From NCBI RefSeq assembly GCF_006716125.1, contig NZ_VFOM01000001.1, positions 310,001-374,000 of the forward strand: DNA of 64,000 nt, written 5' to 3'. The notes below the pieces were generated by a model that made no database searches, had not been told where the DNA came from, and saw nothing but the letters and a program-made list of their open reading frames with translations. How positions within the stretch are numbered: the first letter of the stretch is position 1; each line of letters opens with the position of its first letter. The DNA comes from Homoserinimonas aerilata. Its GTDB lineage: Bacteria; Actinomycetota; Actinomycetes; Actinomycetales; Microbacteriaceae. Below are positions 2,496 through 55,290 of this stretch, piece by piece. The translations under genes and the position numbers were made by a program.

Positions 2496-3335
2496 CTAGG
2501 CCGTCTCCTTCGGCCCGCCCCTGATGAGGGGGCCTGCGGTGCCGGAGACGGCATCTGCCTCTCCGCCCTCCCAGATGGAGCTCATCTCGAGGAAGGTGCG
2601 CTGCATGATCCGCAGCATCGAGGCCTGGGCGTCGTCCGGGTTGCCGCGCTGGATGGCGCTGGCCACGTCGACATGGAACTGCAGCGCCTCGACGTGCGGA
2701 TGCGTGGGCATGAGGCCGTAATGGGTGCGGCCCACGAGCACCTCTTCGACGAGGGTGTGCAGTTTGCCGAACATCTCGTTGCCCGAGTTGGTGAGCACGA
2801 GCCGGTGGAATTCGACATCGAGTTCGAGAAAACGCTCGCGGTCGCCCTCCTGCCCTGCCGCCCACAGTTTGCCGGCGAGGCCCATGAGTTCGCTCGCCCC
2901 GGTGAGGGGGGCGCGGATGGCGGCAAGCCGTGCGGCCTCTGGTTCGACCGCGGTGCGCAGTTCGGTGAGCGAGCGCAGCTGCGCGATGCGGCCGGGGGAT
3001 GCGAGGCGCCAGCGGATCAGCTGCGGGTCGTAGAGATTCCATTCGGACTGGGGGAGCACCTTCACTCCCACCCGGCGCCGCGAGGAGATCATCCCCATGG
3101 AGGCGAGCACGCGCAGGGCTTCGCGCACGACGGAGCGCGACACGTCGTAGCGCTGCTCGAGTTCGTCGATGCGCATGATCGACCCCGCAGACAGTTCGCC
3201 GGAACACAGCGCCAGACCGAGACGGTCGAGGACATGCGCGTGGAGGCCCATCAGGCGGGAGGAGAGTTCGTCGCCGGCATCGGCGGTCATCTCTTTGGCA
3301 TCATTGCTCACGGATAAATCATATCGTTTTCGCAT
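2496..3335 (-). CDS. GntR-family (FadR/FCD subfamily) transcriptional regulator
   Basis: Regulator of 279 residues. A winged helix-turn-helix occupies about residues 35-100 (LEQRYDVSRSVVREALRVLA), then an all-helical FCD ligand domain to about residue 235, with its usual metal-ligand pattern suggested by D-x3-H (LDVEFHRLV). FadR-type regulators next to DgoD genes usually sense galactonate or KDG derivatives (family knowledge). It diverges from the importer and dehydratase operon starting at 3460 and probably represses it. The ATG at 3335 gives the longest product; a GTG about eight codons in (VSNDAKEM) is an alternative start. A weak 6-bp hairpin lies at 2458-2472 past its end. Confidence 0.9.
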   Translation of the reverse strand: MRKRYDLSVSNDAKEMTADAGDELSSRLMGLHAHVLDRLGLALCSGELSAGSIMRIDELEQRYDVSRSVVREALRVLASMGMISSRRRVGVKVLPQSEWNLYDPQLIRWRLASPGRIAQLRSLTELRTAVEPEAARLAAIRAPLTGASELMGLAGKLWAAGQEGDRERFLELDVEFHRLVLTNSGNEMFGKLHTLVEEVLVGRTHYGLMPTHPHVEALQFHVDVASAIQRGNPDDAQASMLRIMQRTFLEMSSIWEGGEADAVSGTAGPLIRGGPKETA

Positions 3336-3459: not shown

Positions 3460-4755
3460 ATGAAGCGATCTGTAATCCGAATCACCGGGATTGCGACAGC
3501 AGCCCTGCTCCTGGGAAGCGGCCTCGCGGCCTGCAGCTCGGGCGACGGAGGTGGCGGGGGCTCTGAGACCCTCCGCGTGACGCTCGTGAACCACGTGTGG
3601 ACCGACATCATCAAGGAGAAGATCCCGGAGTTCGAGAAGGAATCCGGCATCAAGGTCGAGGTCGCGCAGTTCGGCGAAGACCAGCTCTCCGACCAGTACA
3701 ACGTGAAGCTCAACGCGGGTAGCGACGAGATCGACGTCATGATGTACCGCCCGCTCCAGGAGGGCAAGCTCTTCGCGAAGAACGGCTACATGGCCGACCT
3801 GAGCGACCGCGTCTCCGAGAACGCCGACTGGGACTGGGCCGACTACCAGGAGGGCCCCGTCAACTCGACCACCTACGACGGCAATGTCGTCGGTGTGCCG
3901 ATCATCACCGAGCAGGAGGTGCTCTACTACCGCAAGGACCTGCTGGAGGCTGCCGGCCTCGAGGTGCCCAAGACGATGGATGACCTCCTCGCGGCGGCAG
4001 AGCAGATCAAGAACGAGAACCCGGGTGTTGCCGGCTTCGTCGCCCGCACCGGCAAGTCCGCTGCGGTGACCCAGTTCTCGAGCTTCCTGTTCAGCTACGG
4101 CGGTGACTTCATCGACAAGGACGGCAAGGCCAGCGTCAACACCCCTGAGGCCAAGGAAGCGTACGCCACCTACGGCAAGCTGATCCACGACTTCGGACCC
4201 GACAATGTCAGCACTGACATGAGCTGGTCTGAGGCGATGGCCATCTTCACGCAGGGTGGCGCGGCGTTCTACACGGAGGCCGACAGCCTCTACAAGAACG
4301 CGACCGACCCGGCCAACTCGAAGGTCTCCGACACGGTCGGCTTCGCGCCGATCCCGGCCGGCCCTGACGGTTCGAAGGCGTACAACGTTCCCTCGTGGGC
4401 GCTCGGCGTGAACGAGGCATCGGGCAACCAGGACAACGCGTGGAAGTTCATCGAGTGGGCCACCAGCCAGGACATGACGCTCGAGATCCAGAAGGCCGGC
4501 GTCCCCGGAGCCCGCACCTCGGTGTGGGATGACCCTGAGGGCATCTCGACCTACCCGGCCGACCTCGCCGAGGCGATCGCCATCAGCACGAAGAACGGTA
4601 TCGGTCACGACCGCCCGCTCGTCATCAAGGTTCCTGAGGCCCGTGAGATCGTCGGCGAGCCCATCGTCGTCGCCATCACCGGCGGAGATTCGGATGCCGC
4701 CGCGGATGCCGCGAACAAGGCATTCCAGGCGCTCCTGGACGACGAGAACAAGTAG
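3460..4755 (+). CDS. ABC transporter sugar-binding lipoprotein (family 1)
   Basis: Extracytoplasmic substrate-binding lipoprotein of a MalE/UgpB-like carbohydrate importer, 431 residues. A signal peptide (MKRSVIRIT, then a hydrophobic core) ends in the lipobox GLAAC with the lipidated cysteine at residue 25, followed by a Ser/Gly-rich linker. I chose the ATG at 3460 over an upstream in-frame GTG because it follows GAGGAAG and starts the signal peptide. The two cognate permeases follow after 187 bases. Neighbouring galactonate and mannonate dehydratases suggest a sugar acid, or a sugar or oligosaccharide feeding them, as ligand; the exact ligand cannot be read from sequence. Confidence 0.92.
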   Translation: MKRSVIRITGIATAALLLGSGLAACSSGDGGGGGSETLRVTLVNHVWTDIIKEKIPEFEKESGIKVEVAQFGEDQLSDQYNVKLNAGSDEIDVMMYRPLQEGKLFAKNGYMADLSDRVSENADWDWADYQEGPVNSTTYDGNVVGVPIITEQEVLYYRKDLLEAAGLEVPKTMDDLLAAAEQIKNENPGVAGFVARTGKSAAVTQFSSFLFSYGGDFIDKDGKASVNTPEAKEAYATYGKLIHDFGPDNVSTDMSWSEAMAIFTQGGAAFYTEADSLYKNATDPANSKVSDTVGFAPIPAGPDGSKAYNVPSWALGVNEASGNQDNAWKFIEWATSQDMTLEIQKAGVPGARTSVWDDPEGISTYPADLAEAIAISTKNGIGHDRPLVIKVPEAREIVGEPIVVAITGGDSDAAADAANKAFQALLDDENK

Positions 4756-25817: not shown

Positions 25818-27079
25818 CTCGCGTTCCGCGTGCTGTGACAGCTGCGGCCATCTCGGTGCTGTTCGCCGTGCTGGCCACGCTCCTGGTGGCGTCTCCGGCT
25901 GCGGCTGACAGCATCCGCGACCGCGAGTACTGGCTGCAGCAGTACGGTGTGACGGAGGCGTGGGCGAAGAGTCGCGGCGCCGGTGTCACGGTCGCCGTCA
26001 TCGACACGGGTGTCGACGGTACGCATCCTGATCTGCTCGGCGCTGTCGTCGGGGGCACGGATGTCTCGGGTGTCGGTGCGTCGAATGGCCAGACCCCGGT
26101 GGGTGCCTCGAGCAGGGAGCACGGCACGATGGTGGCGTCGCTGCTGGCCGGTCGCGGTCACGGTGAGAATGGCGAGGACGGCGTGATGGGGGTGGCGCCG
26201 GAGGCGCGGCTGCTGTCGATCTCTGTCGGCTTCGGTGTGGGCACGATCAGCTCGGATGATCAGATCGCCGAGGCGGTGACCTGGGCGGTCGACAATGGGG
26301 CGGATGTGATCAACATGTCGCTCACCCGCAACACGCTCGAGTGGCCCGAGAGTTGGGACGACGCCTTCCTGTACGCCATGCAGAACGATGTGGTGATCGT
26401 TGCGGCGGCGGGTAACCGGGGCAGCGGTACAACGCAGGTGGGTGCGCCCGCGACGATGCCCGGCGTGCTCACGGTCGCCGGCGTCGACCGGCAGGGCGGC
26501 GCCAGTTTCGACGCGTCCTCGCAGGGCATCACCATCTCGGTGGCCGCTCCCAGCGAGGAGCTTGTGGGGGCGACGCCGTCTGGCGGGTATTCGACCTGGG
26601 GCGGCACCAGCGGGGCGACGCCGATCGTCGCCGGCCTGGTCGCACTTGTGCGTTCGGCGTATCCGAATCTGGATGCGGGCAATGTCATCAACCGAATCAC
26701 GGAGACGGCCACGCAGGTGGGCGCGTCGGCGCAGAGCCCCATCTACGGGCACGGGCGCATCAATGCGGCGCTCGCCGTTTCGGCGTCCGTGCCGGGGGTC
26801 GACGATGACCCGGCGAAGCAGTTGAGCGATTGGATCCGCGTGTATCGCAGGGCGGATGCGCCGCCGCTGCCGACCCCGACGCCCGCGCTTCCGACTCCGA
26901 CGCCCATTGCGGAGCCGGTGACGCAGGTGGCGAGTCCGCTCGGCACGGTGCTGCCGACGGTGTCGGATCTGCGCGAGTTCGGCATCCCTCTTCTCGTCTT
27001 CGTGCTGTTCGGCGGCGCAGTGGCCGCTGTGGGGTTTGCCGCGTTACGTCAGTTCGGGAGGAACCGGAGAAGGTACTAA
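25814..27079 (+). CDS. Membrane-anchored S8 (subtilisin-like) serine protease
   Basis: Secreted, C-terminally anchored protease of 421 residues. A signal peptide ends near SPAAADS; the catalytic Asp is in VAVIDTGVDGTHPDL, His in SREHGTMVASLLAG, the oxyanion Asn in VAAAGNRGSG and Ser in GGTSGATPIVAGLVAL, where the usual Met of GTSMATP is Gly. A Pro/Thr linker (PTPTPALPTPTP) and one transmembrane helix near residues 385-405 follow, with basic residues inside. The layout resembles mycosins, but no type VII secretion genes are in the window. It overlaps DUF501 (ATGA) and precedes NDH-2. Substrate unknown. Confidence 0.9.
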   Translation: MTRVPRAVTAAAISVLFAVLATLLVASPAAADSIRDREYWLQQYGVTEAWAKSRGAGVTVAVIDTGVDGTHPDLLGAVVGGTDVSGVGASNGQTPVGASSREHGTMVASLLAGRGHGENGEDGVMGVAPEARLLSISVGFGVGTISSDDQIAEAVTWAVDNGADVINMSLTRNTLEWPESWDDAFLYAMQNDVVIVAAAGNRGSGTTQVGAPATMPGVLTVAGVDRQGGASFDASSQGITISVAAPSEELVGATPSGGYSTWGGTSGATPIVAGLVALVRSAYPNLDAGNVINRITETATQVGASAQSPIYGHGRINAALAVSASVPGVDDDPAKQLSDWIRVYRRADAPPLPTPTPALPTPTPIAEPVTQVASPLGTVLPTVSDLREFGIPLLVFVLFGGAVAAVGFAALRQFGRNRRRY

Positions 27080-27080
27080 C

Positions 27081-28661
27081 ATGAAGGTCGTGCCAAAAAT
27101 CCTTATCGTCGGCGGCGGCTATGCCGGTTTCTACACTGCTCTGAAGCTCGAGAAGCATCTCAGGCGGGGTGAAGCCGAGGTCACAGTGGTCGACCCTCTG
27201 CCTTACATGACGTACCAGCCGTTCCTCCCTGAGGTGGCGGCGGGTTCCGTGGAGCCGCGCCATGCGGTTGTGTCGATCCGCAAGCACCTGAAGTCGACCG
27301 AGGTCATCTCGGCTCGCGTGACGGCCATCGATCACGCCACGAAGACGGCGACGATCACGCCGGAGCTGGGCGAGCCGTGGCAGTTCGAGTACGACATCGT
27401 CGTGGTCACTGCTGGCGCGATCACCCGCACCTTCCCCATCCCGGGCATCGCCGAGAACGCCTACGGTCTCAAGACCATCGAGGAGGCGACTGCGATCCGC
27501 GACCGGGTCACCGCCAACTTCGAGCGTGCCTCCGCGTTGCCGGCCGGCCCGGAGCGCGACCGTCTGCTCACCTTCACGGTTGTCGGTGGCGGCTTCGCCG
27601 GCATCGAGGTCTTCGGTGAGTTGCGCAGCCTCGCGAGCTCGCTGCTCAAGCACTACCCGCAGCTCGGCTTCGAGGATGTGCACTTCCACCTCATCGAGGC
27701 CATGGGCCGCATCATGCCCGAGGTCTCGCTCAAGACGAGCCAGTGGGTCATCAAGAACCTTGCGCAGCGCGGCGCGCAGATCCACCTCGACACGCAGCTC
27801 AGCTCGGCTGTCGATGGCAAGATCGAGACGTCGACCGGCCTCGTCTTCGAGAGCGACACGATCATCTGGACGGCGGGCGTCATGGCGCACCCCGTGCTGC
27901 GCAACACCGACCTTCCGATCGAGGAGCGTGGCCGTCTGCGCCTCGGCGCCGACCTGCGGGCCCGCACCGAAGACGGCGATGTCGTCGCGGATGCCTGGGG
28001 CGCCGGCGATGTCAGCGCGGTTCCCGATCTGAGCGGCGGCGGCGTGGCAGGCTTCTGCGTGCCGAACGCGCAGCACGCGGTCCGCCAGGGCAAGCTTCTC
28101 GCCAAGAACCTGGTCGGCAGCCTCCGCGGTGATGAGCCGAGGGACTACTTCCACAAGAACGCGGGCGCTGTTGCCGGCATCGGTCTCGGCACTGGCGTGT
28201 TCCAGGCCGGCCGCATCGCCGTCAAGGGCTTCGTCGCCTGGGGCATGCACCGCGGCTACCACGGTCTCGCGATGCCGATGTGGGAGCGCAAGATCCGCGT
28301 CTTCGCGGGCTGGTTCGTGCAGGCCATCACCGGTCGTGACATTGTCGGCATCGAGGCGCGCAACGAGCCGCGCGCGGTGTTCGAGCAGTACGCGGCCCGC
28401 CCCAAGACGACGCCGCGCCAGGCTCCGGCGGCTCCGGCTGCTGCGGGTACCGAGGCGAAGTCCGCAGCGAAGGCTGCACCGAAGGCTGCTGCCAAGTCGA
28501 CGGCTCCGAAGTCGACCGCAGTCAAGACCGGCACTGCCAAGACGGGCGCTGCCAAGTCGACCGCAGCCAAGACGGGCACTGCCAAGGCGCCTGCTGCCAA
28601 GACTACGGAGAAGGCCGCTGCTGAGCCTGCTCAGAGCGAGGCGACGACCGCCTCCCAGTAG
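27081..28661 (+). CDS. ndh: Type II NADH dehydrogenase with Lys/Ala-rich tail
   Basis: Single-subunit, non-proton-pumping NADH:quinone oxidoreductase, or a related FAD-dependent oxidoreductase, on the inner membrane face. Residues 1 to about 440 form the two-dinucleotide fold: FAD site ILIVGGGYAGFYTALKLE, NADH site FTVVGGGFAGIEVFGEL near residue 170, and AWGAGDVSAVPD near 315. The last 70 or so residues are histone-H1-like repeats (AAKST, AKTGTAK, PAAKT), basic and low in complexity, longer than usual for NDH-2. The ATG at 27081 is just past the protease stop, preceded by GAGAAGG. A strong terminator follows. Confidence 0.88.
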   Translation: MKVVPKILIVGGGYAGFYTALKLEKHLRRGEAEVTVVDPLPYMTYQPFLPEVAAGSVEPRHAVVSIRKHLKSTEVISARVTAIDHATKTATITPELGEPWQFEYDIVVVTAGAITRTFPIPGIAENAYGLKTIEEATAIRDRVTANFERASALPAGPERDRLLTFTVVGGGFAGIEVFGELRSLASSLLKHYPQLGFEDVHFHLIEAMGRIMPEVSLKTSQWVIKNLAQRGAQIHLDTQLSSAVDGKIETSTGLVFESDTIIWTAGVMAHPVLRNTDLPIEERGRLRLGADLRARTEDGDVVADAWGAGDVSAVPDLSGGGVAGFCVPNAQHAVRQGKLLAKNLVGSLRGDEPRDYFHKNAGAVAGIGLGTGVFQAGRIAVKGFVAWGMHRGYHGLAMPMWERKIRVFAGWFVQAITGRDIVGIEARNEPRAVFEQYAARPKTTPRQAPAAPAAAGTEAKSAAKAAPKAAAKSTAPKSTAVKTGTAKTGAAKSTAAKTGTAKAPAAKTTEKAAAEPAQSEATTASQ

Positions 28662-28801: not shown

Positions 28802-28875
28802 GCCCCTATAGCCCAATTGGCAGAGGCAGACGACTTAAAATCGTCAGAGTCAGGGTTCGAGTCCCTGTAGGGGCA
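28802..28875 (+). tRNA. tRNA with anticodon UAA (tRNA-Leu by anticodon), short variable loop
   Basis: A complete 74-base cloverleaf can be drawn: acceptor GCCCCTA/TAGGGGC, D arm with GCCC-AATTGGCAGA-GGC, anticodon stem GACGA/TCGTC with loop CTTAAAA (anticodon TAA at 28835-28837 by my count), variable loop AGAGT, T arm CAGGG-TTCGAGT-CCCTG, and discriminator A followed by encoded CC but not the final A. The anticodon reads UUA leucine codons. The 5-base variable loop is class I, whereas bacterial tRNA-Leu is normally class II with a long variable arm, so true identity is open. Confidence 0.85.
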
Positions 28876-28930
28876 CCTTCGTTCTGTGCAACCCGGGGGG
28901 CACTCCTCCGCCGGCTGACAGTGAACGGCC

Positions 28931-48105: not shown

Positions 48106-48117
48106 GTGGTGTGGGAG

Positions 48118-53901: not shown

Positions 53902-55290
53902 GTGGCCCAGGCAACTTCGTCCATCGCCCAGCAGCCGACCGAGAAGCGGTCGACCCCGAGGCAGGCGCCCACGGCGGCCGTCGCGGGGGCGCAGCGGCAG
54001 GCTGAGCGCACCTATGTGCTCGACACTTCTGTTCTGTTGTCGGACCCGCGGGCGATCTTCCGGTTCGCCGAACATTCGGTTGTGCTGCCGGTGGTGGTCA
54101 TCGCCGAGTTGGAGGCGAAGCGGCACGACCCTGAGATCGGCTATTTCGCCCGGCAGGCGCTGCGCAATCTCGATGAGCTTCGCGTGAAGCATGAGCGCCT
54201 CGACTTTCCGATCGAGGTCGGCGATGGCGGCTCGCTCCGGGTGGAGCTGAACCATTCCAGCATGGATGCGCTGCCGTCGGGCCTGAAGCTCGGCGACAAC
54301 GATTCGCGCATCCTGGCGGTGGCCATGAACCTCGCCGCGGAGGGGCTCAACGTAACGGTCGTCTCGAAGGATCTGCCTCTCCGGGTGAAGGCGGCATCCG
54401 TCGGCCTCGCCGCCGACGAGTACCGCGCCGAGATGGCGGTGGATTCCGGATGGTCGGGAATGGCCGAGATAGACCTTGGCTCCGAGCAGATGGCGAAGCT
54501 GTATGAGGACGAGTCGCTCAGCAGTCGGCTGGTCGCCGACATGCCCATCAACACGGGCCTCGTCGTGCACTCCGACCGCGGCTCCGCGCTCGCTCGTGTC
54601 TCCGAGCGCGGCCAGATGCGGCTCGTGCGCGGCGACCGCGACATCTTCGGCCTGCACGGGCATTCGGCCGAGCAGCGCCTCGCCATCGACATGCTGCTCG
54701 ACCCGGAGATGGGCATCATCTCGCTCGGCGGCCGCGCGGGCACCGGCAAGTCGGCGCTCGCGCTCTGTGCGGGCCTCGAGGCGGTGCTCGAGCGCCAGCA
54801 GCACCGCAAGATCATGGTCTTCCGCCCGCTGTATGCGGTGGGCGGCCAGGATCTCGGCTTCCTGCCCGGCGATTCCGGCGAGAAGATGAACCCGTGGGCG
54901 CAAGCCGTGTTCGACACCCTGGGTTCGGTCGTGTCGCAGAATGTGCTCGATGAGGTGCTCGAGCGCGGCCTGCTGGAGGTTCTGCCGCTCACGCACATCC
55001 GGGGTCGTTCGCTGCATGATGCCTTCGTGATCGTCGACGAGGCACAGTCGCTCGAACGCAATGTGCTGCTGACGGTGCTGAGCCGCATCGGGCAGAACTC
55101 GCGGGTCGTACTCACGCATGACGTCGCCCAGCGCGACAACCTGAGGGTGGGGCGCCACGACGGCGTAGCATCCGTCATCGAGGCGTTGAAGGGGCAGTCG
55201 CTCTTCGGGCACATCACGCTCACCAAGTCGGAGCGCAGCGCGATCGCCGCACTTGTCACCGAGATGCTGGAGTCAAACGAGCTGGCCTGA
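53902..55290 (+). CDS. phoH2: PIN domain-PhoH ATPase fusion (PhoH2-type)
   Basis: RNA-processing enzyme of 462 residues. The N-terminal PIN nuclease has acidic residues in [23 protein letters not shown] and [12 protein letters not shown]; the C-terminal PhoH NTPase/helicase has Walker [20 protein letters not shown] and Walker [15 protein letters not shown]. Such PhoH2 fusions are RNA helicase/RNases in mycobacteria. GTG 53902 follows GGAG by five bases and is preferred to GTG 53848, which lies inside a hairpin. PHO-like repeats and a structured leader precede it. Confidence 0.9.

Follow-up and report, generated by a model that had tools for sequence, protein, structure and literature searches.

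In all systems save animal mitochondria, according to a 2023 review, tRNA-Leu carries a long variable arm (PMC9976931). The same review counts A73, A14, the A15-U48 pair, G18G19 and A20a among the leucine identity elements, and reports that the long arm is not crucial for leucine identity in E. coli, where armless variants are still charged (PMC9976931). The animal mitochondrial tRNA-Leu(UUR), the review's sole exception, resembles the gene described here in lacking the arm and is charged through A73 and A14, but it is organellar and is served by its own LeuRS (PMC9976931). Another case comes from a mycobacterial genome paper, the authors of which contrast the short variable loop of a tRNA-Leu(UAG) with the "normal" larger loop (PMC6582537). 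That gene is also a short-looped actinobacterial tRNA-Leu, but it has a different anticodon, belongs to a tRNA cluster and occurs in some species only (PMC6582537).

Phages supply further examples. Citrobacter phage Moogle (L250) carries short leucine tRNAs with the anticodons UAG, CAA and UAA and loops of 5, 6 and 7 nt (positions 3001-3077, 3576-3653 and 3994-4072 of L250), Mycobacterium phage Sunshine924 a short tRNA-Leu(UAA) (L251, 1501-1575) and Gordonia phage Keelan a short tRNA-Leu(UAG) (L252, 1501-1575). They share with the present gene a loop of 5-7 nt, C13.A22, A15-U48, A20a and A73, but they are phage-borne and have several anticodons, and those of Moogle lie within a tRNA array. Because this array holds three short leucine tRNAs, enterobacterial LeuRS presumably charges armless tRNA-Leu. 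Our search of the open-access literature found no description of a short tRNA-Leu(UAA) in actinobacteria; such genes are probably listed in tRNA databases.

The DNA analyzed here, hereafter the window, is a 64,000-nt stretch of the Homoserinimonas aerilata genome (2.84 Mb in 6 contigs, 99.96% complete, 67% G+C). ARAGORN finds one tRNA in it, a leucine tRNA with anticodon taa at 28802-28877 on the forward strand, and Rfam family RF00005 matches 28802-28875 over the full length of the model with 64 bits (cut-off 29; E 1.4e-11). The anticodon TAA (28836-28838; UAA in the RNA) reads UUA. The variable loop AGAGT (28846-28850), the final base of which, U48, can pair with A15, has 5 nt, within the 4-5 nt of a class I tRNA and below the 10 nt or more of a class II arm. 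ARAGORN, RF00005 and the sequence itself therefore confirm the combination of UAA anticodon and five-base loop on which the initial annotation of this locus was built. Its description of a perfect fit in every stem holds for the complete 7-bp acceptor, 5-bp anticodon and 5-bp T stems and for the D-stem pairs G10-C25, C11-G24 and C12-G23, but not at 13.22, where a conserved C13.A22 mismatch stands. The D arm (28811-28828), which reads GCCC-AATTGGCAG-AGGC-A, has these three pairs together with A14, A15, G18G19, A20a and G21. The discriminator base A73 stands at 28875, and the 3' CCA is only partly encoded (A73, CC, then T). A scan for sigma-70-type promoters, which may not suit actinobacteria, gave no match upstream of the gene. 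On the same strand upstream, at 27036-28661, lies a gene the product of which we take to be of the type II NADH dehydrogenase type (ndh-like), and which the neighborhood comparison shows to be a recurrent neighbor of tRNA-Leu(UAA). The 3' end of this gene (window positions ~28410-28661) encodes a long tail of Ala/Lys/Thr-rich repeats, unlike the remaining protein.

We propose, with a probability of roughly 87%, that the gene at 28802-28875 encodes this organism's normal tRNA-Leu for UUA, by pattern its sole one, that the tRNA is charged by LeuRS, and that its arm was lost in place and the short form spread by descent. The gene, its uniqueness by pattern, its conservation, the meaning of TTA in relatives and the shared neighborhood are established.

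The features expected of a leucine tRNA are present. The anticodon is a leucine anticodon as read by ARAGORN, and A73, A14, A15-U48, G18G19 and A20a are all found in 28802-28875. Patterns that leave every D-arm letter free yield 65 distinct short UAA tRNAs. All 65 have A14, A15-U48, G18G19, A73, C12-G23 and C13.A22, and 64 have A20a-G21; U48 was forced by the pattern for loci from the class and phylum samples, and free for loci from the own genome, the family and the re-searched genomes. Pairs 10-25 (G-C in 53, U-A in 7, C-G in 5) and 11-24 (C-G in 59, U-A in 6) covary in this set. A set of 155 distinct sequences, which includes loci found with a pattern that forces D-arm letters and U48, was set aside for these D-arm counts. 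The class II bacterial tRNA-Leu(UAA), as in E. coli leuZ and the bldA-like genes of actinomycetes, shares the anticodon, A73, A14 and G18G19 with the short form, along with A15-U48 (10/10 class II sequences), a 3-bp D stem and a position 13.22 that is usually unpaired. The two kinds differ in the variable region, 5 nt against an arm of 13-17 nt, and in the core of the D arm: C12-G23 is found in 65/65 short forms and G12-C23 in 10/10 class II forms, 13.22 is C.A in 65/65 short forms but T.C (4), G.A (2), C.A (2), A.C (1) or T.G (1) in class II, and A20a-G21 occurs in 64/65 against 6/10.

The initial annotation suggested that a second, class II tRNA-Leu(UAA) be sought in the genome. None was found by pattern: the short gene is the sole genome match to TTAARN{12,41}GTTCRANNC, which was meant for short and long UAA tRNAs alike but would miss genes whose anticodon or T loop is unusual. 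The finding rests on this pattern and not on the genome-wide RF00005 search, the 44 matches of which include no Ser GCU or UGA gene, so that this search probably missed some class II genes. The other leucine anticodons, CAA, UAG, GAG and CAG, belong to separate class II tRNA genes, and leuS has one match above the family cut-off, with weaker matches below it. We infer that this single bacterial-type LeuRS charges the short tRNA as well.

UUA codons were said to be rare in such genomes, and here they are: among the 8725 leucine codons of 241 open reading frames with homologues, 26 are TTA, or 0.29 per 1000 codons. Ten open reading frames of the window that have homologues contain TTA (called mechanically, some overlapping others), with three TTA codons in the frame at 48106 on the forward strand (502 aa) and two in that at 55212 on the reverse strand (543 aa). 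Such rarity is what one would look for if the tRNA restrained TTA-bearing genes in the manner of bldA in Streptomyces, an explanation that we nonetheless consider quite improbable. TTA rarity also fits a G+C content of 67%, and the tRNA has the same form in relatives of 53% G+C that use TTA in conserved genes. Furthermore, no sequence feature points to regulation, and bldA-like genes are class II, a structure that 28802-28875 does not have.

Loss of the long arm could in principle let another synthetase take the tRNA, in which case UUA would be read as a different amino acid. No analysis here gave a result in favor of this. We consider what stands opposite TTA codons in alignments of homologues, with TTA masked and the residue most often aligned at each site recorded. 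Relative G059 carries the short tRNA. Of its 172 TTA sites, 105 have leucine as the commonest residue, in keeping with its other leucine codons (CTA 90/144, TTG 395/586, CTG 657/934). The controls ATT, TTT and TCA rank isoleucine, phenylalanine and serine first, and leucine falls on ATT at 119/956 and on TTT at 49/423 sites. Leucine is likewise the commonest residue at 27 of 55 TTA sites in G013 and at 5 of 9 in the own genome. In both G059 and G013 the short gene is, by eye, the sole tRNA-like UAA match among the matches listed. These alignments indirectly support the view that UUA is still read as leucine in relatives carrying the short tRNA, and the nine sites in the own genome weakly suggest the same there. 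Together with the retention of the leucine elements in 64-65 of 65 short sequences, this use of TTA like any other leucine codon makes a change of code hardly credible.

The short tRNA-Leu(UAA) is a widespread actinobacterial variant and not a peculiarity of this genome. Within the Microbacteriaceae, a loose UAA pattern, chance matches included, matches 247 of 249 genomes; the two without a match are G113 (77% complete) and G196 (59% complete). Judged by their letters, all 37 family genomes with matches listed, the own genome excluded, have a 29-nt tRNA-like match to the short form, and so do all 21 family members of the class sample, the own genome included. It had been stated at the outset that a form short throughout the family, and sole decoder of UUA, would speak against anything exceptional here, and this is nearly what is found (37/37 listed, 21/21 sampled, sole UAA match). 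The earlier view of the gene as specialized, mischarged or regulatory is not supported for a tRNA that is the only UAA tRNA found, has a form normal for its family and reads a codon that means leucine in relatives.

Across the class, a strict short pattern matches 205 of 394 genomes and 67 of 138 genera, and a reversed control pattern 1 of 394 (G451). The class II UAA pattern matches 60 of 394 genomes, 39 of them in genus g117, the class II UAA tRNA of which presumably resembles bldA; ARAGORN calls a UAA tRNA at 27 of 30 class II-pattern loci fetched. Both strict patterns match in three of the 394 genomes (G443, G453 and G455), but the long matches in G443 and G453 contain no UAA tRNA according to ARAGORN and that in G455 is not tRNA-like by eye, so by strict patterns no genome among the 394 bears both a short and a long UAA tRNA. 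A further 132 genomes match neither pattern, and 46 of these, hand-picked across families, were re-searched. Nineteen have a UAA tRNA with a variable region of 5-6 nt (18) or 8 nt (1), and because of these the strict-pattern counts are lower bounds; the other 27 have a class II form (10), a region of 8-9 nt (3) or 6 nt (1), no UAA tRNA at the match by ARAGORN (3) or no match (10). In a sample of the phylum, 56 of 296 genomes match the short pattern: 12 of the 26 class members and 44 of the 270 other genomes. From this sample 26 loci were fetched, 8 belonging to the class and 18 not. ARAGORN identifies 25 of them as tRNA-Leu(UAA) whose loop has 5 nt, and reads the remaining one, L391, as Phe with a shifted anticodon.

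A broad scan returned at least 119 stretches matching the short form, and 112 of those listed are titled Actinomycetota. Among the matches listed are Mycobacterium, Nocardia, Rhodococcus, Gordonia, Corynebacterium, Amycolatopsis, Saccharopolyspora, Cellulomonas, Kocuria, Arthrobacter and many Microbacteriaceae. The rest of the 119 listed come from Planctomycetota (L135, L237), Rokubacteria (L138), Deltaproteobacteria (L150) and bacteria given simply as such (L157, L189), with one, L206, titled Rhodococcus but placed by the name table in another phylum; ARAGORN finds no tRNA in L206. Contamination or misfiling was considered, but the acceptor stems are unlike the actinobacterial type in all non-actinobacterial loci except L189, L206 not being counted. 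In the phylum of L150, two of 148 genomes match, that of L150 itself and G685, in which ARAGORN finds no tRNA; the short form is rare in this one other phylum sampled. In actinobacteria, the short tRNA-Leu(UAA) is apparently an overlooked variant, and its novelty is structural and evolutionary.

How the short form arose can be approached through its neighborhood. Within 1.5 kb upstream, an ndh-like gene of the same orientation is found at 62 of the 167 loci whose loop has at most 5 nt (within 500 nt in 57 of the 62), at 2 of 12 loci with a variable region of 6-9 nt, and at 8 of 37 loci with 13 nt or more (within 170 nt in 7 of the 8). The other loci (105 of the 167 short, 29 of the 37 class II) lack the gene, have it at another place, or have it outside the stretch examined, which reached less than 1.3 kb upstream in 12 of the 167 and 1 of the 37. 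None of the 26 phylum loci, 18 of them outside the class, has an ndh-like gene upstream. Since this neighbor is shared by long and short forms, we regard loss of the arm in place, at the ndh-linked locus, as the most likely origin. The initial annotation had described a leucine-type D arm and anticodon that looked as if the arm had been lost, and this fits with the eight ndh-linked class II loci, which come from seven other families of the class. In a quick tree of 43 Ndh proteins, the two arm states need at least 3 changes, against a mean of 6.7 with shuffled labels, although the starred branches force only 1; seven proteins were labeled long, L272 (6 nt) was labeled short, and L354, L358 and L281, with alignments below 300 residues, were dropped. 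In the ndh tree, its neighbors place the present bacterium in the Microbacteriaceae. The direction from long to short and the number of losses are inferred.

It is also possible that a class I tRNA of the Lys or Asn kind was remolded by the gain of one D-loop base, A73 and a UAA anticodon, which would give it leucine identity, and replaced the class II tRNA-Leu(UAA), either in place or at another locus. Compared over 61 positions, the own tRNA is indeed slightly closer to Asn (43 identities) and Lys(CUU) (42) than to the class II Leu(CAA) (39), with Arg(CCU) at 40, and by eye its D arm is about one substitution and one insertion from the Asn and Lys arms. Averaged over all short sequences, the identities are 41.2 for the class II L103, 41.1 for Arg(UCU), 40.3 for Lys(CUU), 40.2 for Asn and 39.1 for Leu(CAA). 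We consider remolding unlikely, however, since some class II genes are ndh-linked as well, the leucine-type D loop and the unpaired 13.22 occur in short and most class II forms (with 13.22 letters that vary in class II), and variable regions of 6, 8 and 9 nt, which exist in UAA tRNAs, resemble steps of a loss. A FastTree tRNA tree, to which we give little weight, also places class II Leu among the short forms. A mobile origin was considered and set aside: although 122 phage and 3 plasmid records match, chromosomal descent is favored by the occurrence of the gene in the whole family and by its recurring ndh-like neighbor.

Loss in place suggests the following course. The arm would be lost at the original ndh-linked locus, the D stem would change to C12-G23 and C13.A22, and descent would then carry the short form into many families of actinobacteria. 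LeuRS would charge the short tRNA via the hinge and A73, using elements common to class II tRNA-Leu, namely A73, A14, A15-U48, G18G19, A20a, the 3-bp D stem and the unpaired 13.22, none of which lies within the long arm itself; UUA would then be read normally. A broader proposal, which we regard as evenly balanced, is that class I tRNA-Leu is an old and stable bacterial kind, with perhaps several in-place losses across Actinomycetota and sporadic ones elsewhere; that these losses were possible because bacterial LeuRS reads the D-arm hinge and A73; and that the C12-G23/C13.A22 core replaces the arm in excluding other synthetases while keeping LeuRS. If this is true, one isoacceptor breaks the rule of an invariably class II bacterial tRNA-Leu across much of a major phylum. 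The lack of the arm in the only UUA-reading tRNA found here, and in the form seen across its family and many other families of actinobacteria, offers a natural experiment on the real requirements of LeuRS. Isotype-aware tRNA programs would be expected to disagree with the anticodon. The short form also bears on the use of arm length as a criterion for tRNA-Leu and on UUA decoding in actinobacteria.

Several loci show further arrangements. Variable regions of 8-9 nt, between class I and class II, are seen in L348, L360, L350 and L274, and the D loop is also shorter in L348 and L360; all 3 distinct forms of 8-9 nt have C instead of A20a before G21. One Rokubacteria MAG has its short gene at the end of a Gly(GCC)-Cys(GCA)-Leu(UAA) series, matching the glyW-cysT-leuZ order of E. 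coli K-12, the leuZ of which has 87 nt; we read this, too, as loss of the arm in place. This MAG (G632) has two Gly(GCC)-Cys(GCA) pairs of identical letters (L261, 384-670; L262, 1202-1546), one followed by the short Leu(UAA) and the other by an apparent long-armed Leu(UAA) that the contig end cuts off. Either a strain mixture or a duplicated cluster would account for the two pairs, and both forms occur at one kind of place. The Deltaproteobacteria MAG stretch L150 has a Cys(GCA)-short Leu(UAA) pair, in the place of E. coli cysT-leuZ. Finally, G260 has four class II UAA-type matches (L364, L367, L368 and L369), of which only L369 is called a tRNA; L364, L367 and L368, the second of which borders masked sequence, match only in the 3' part, as would be expected of attachment-site copies belonging to mobile elements.
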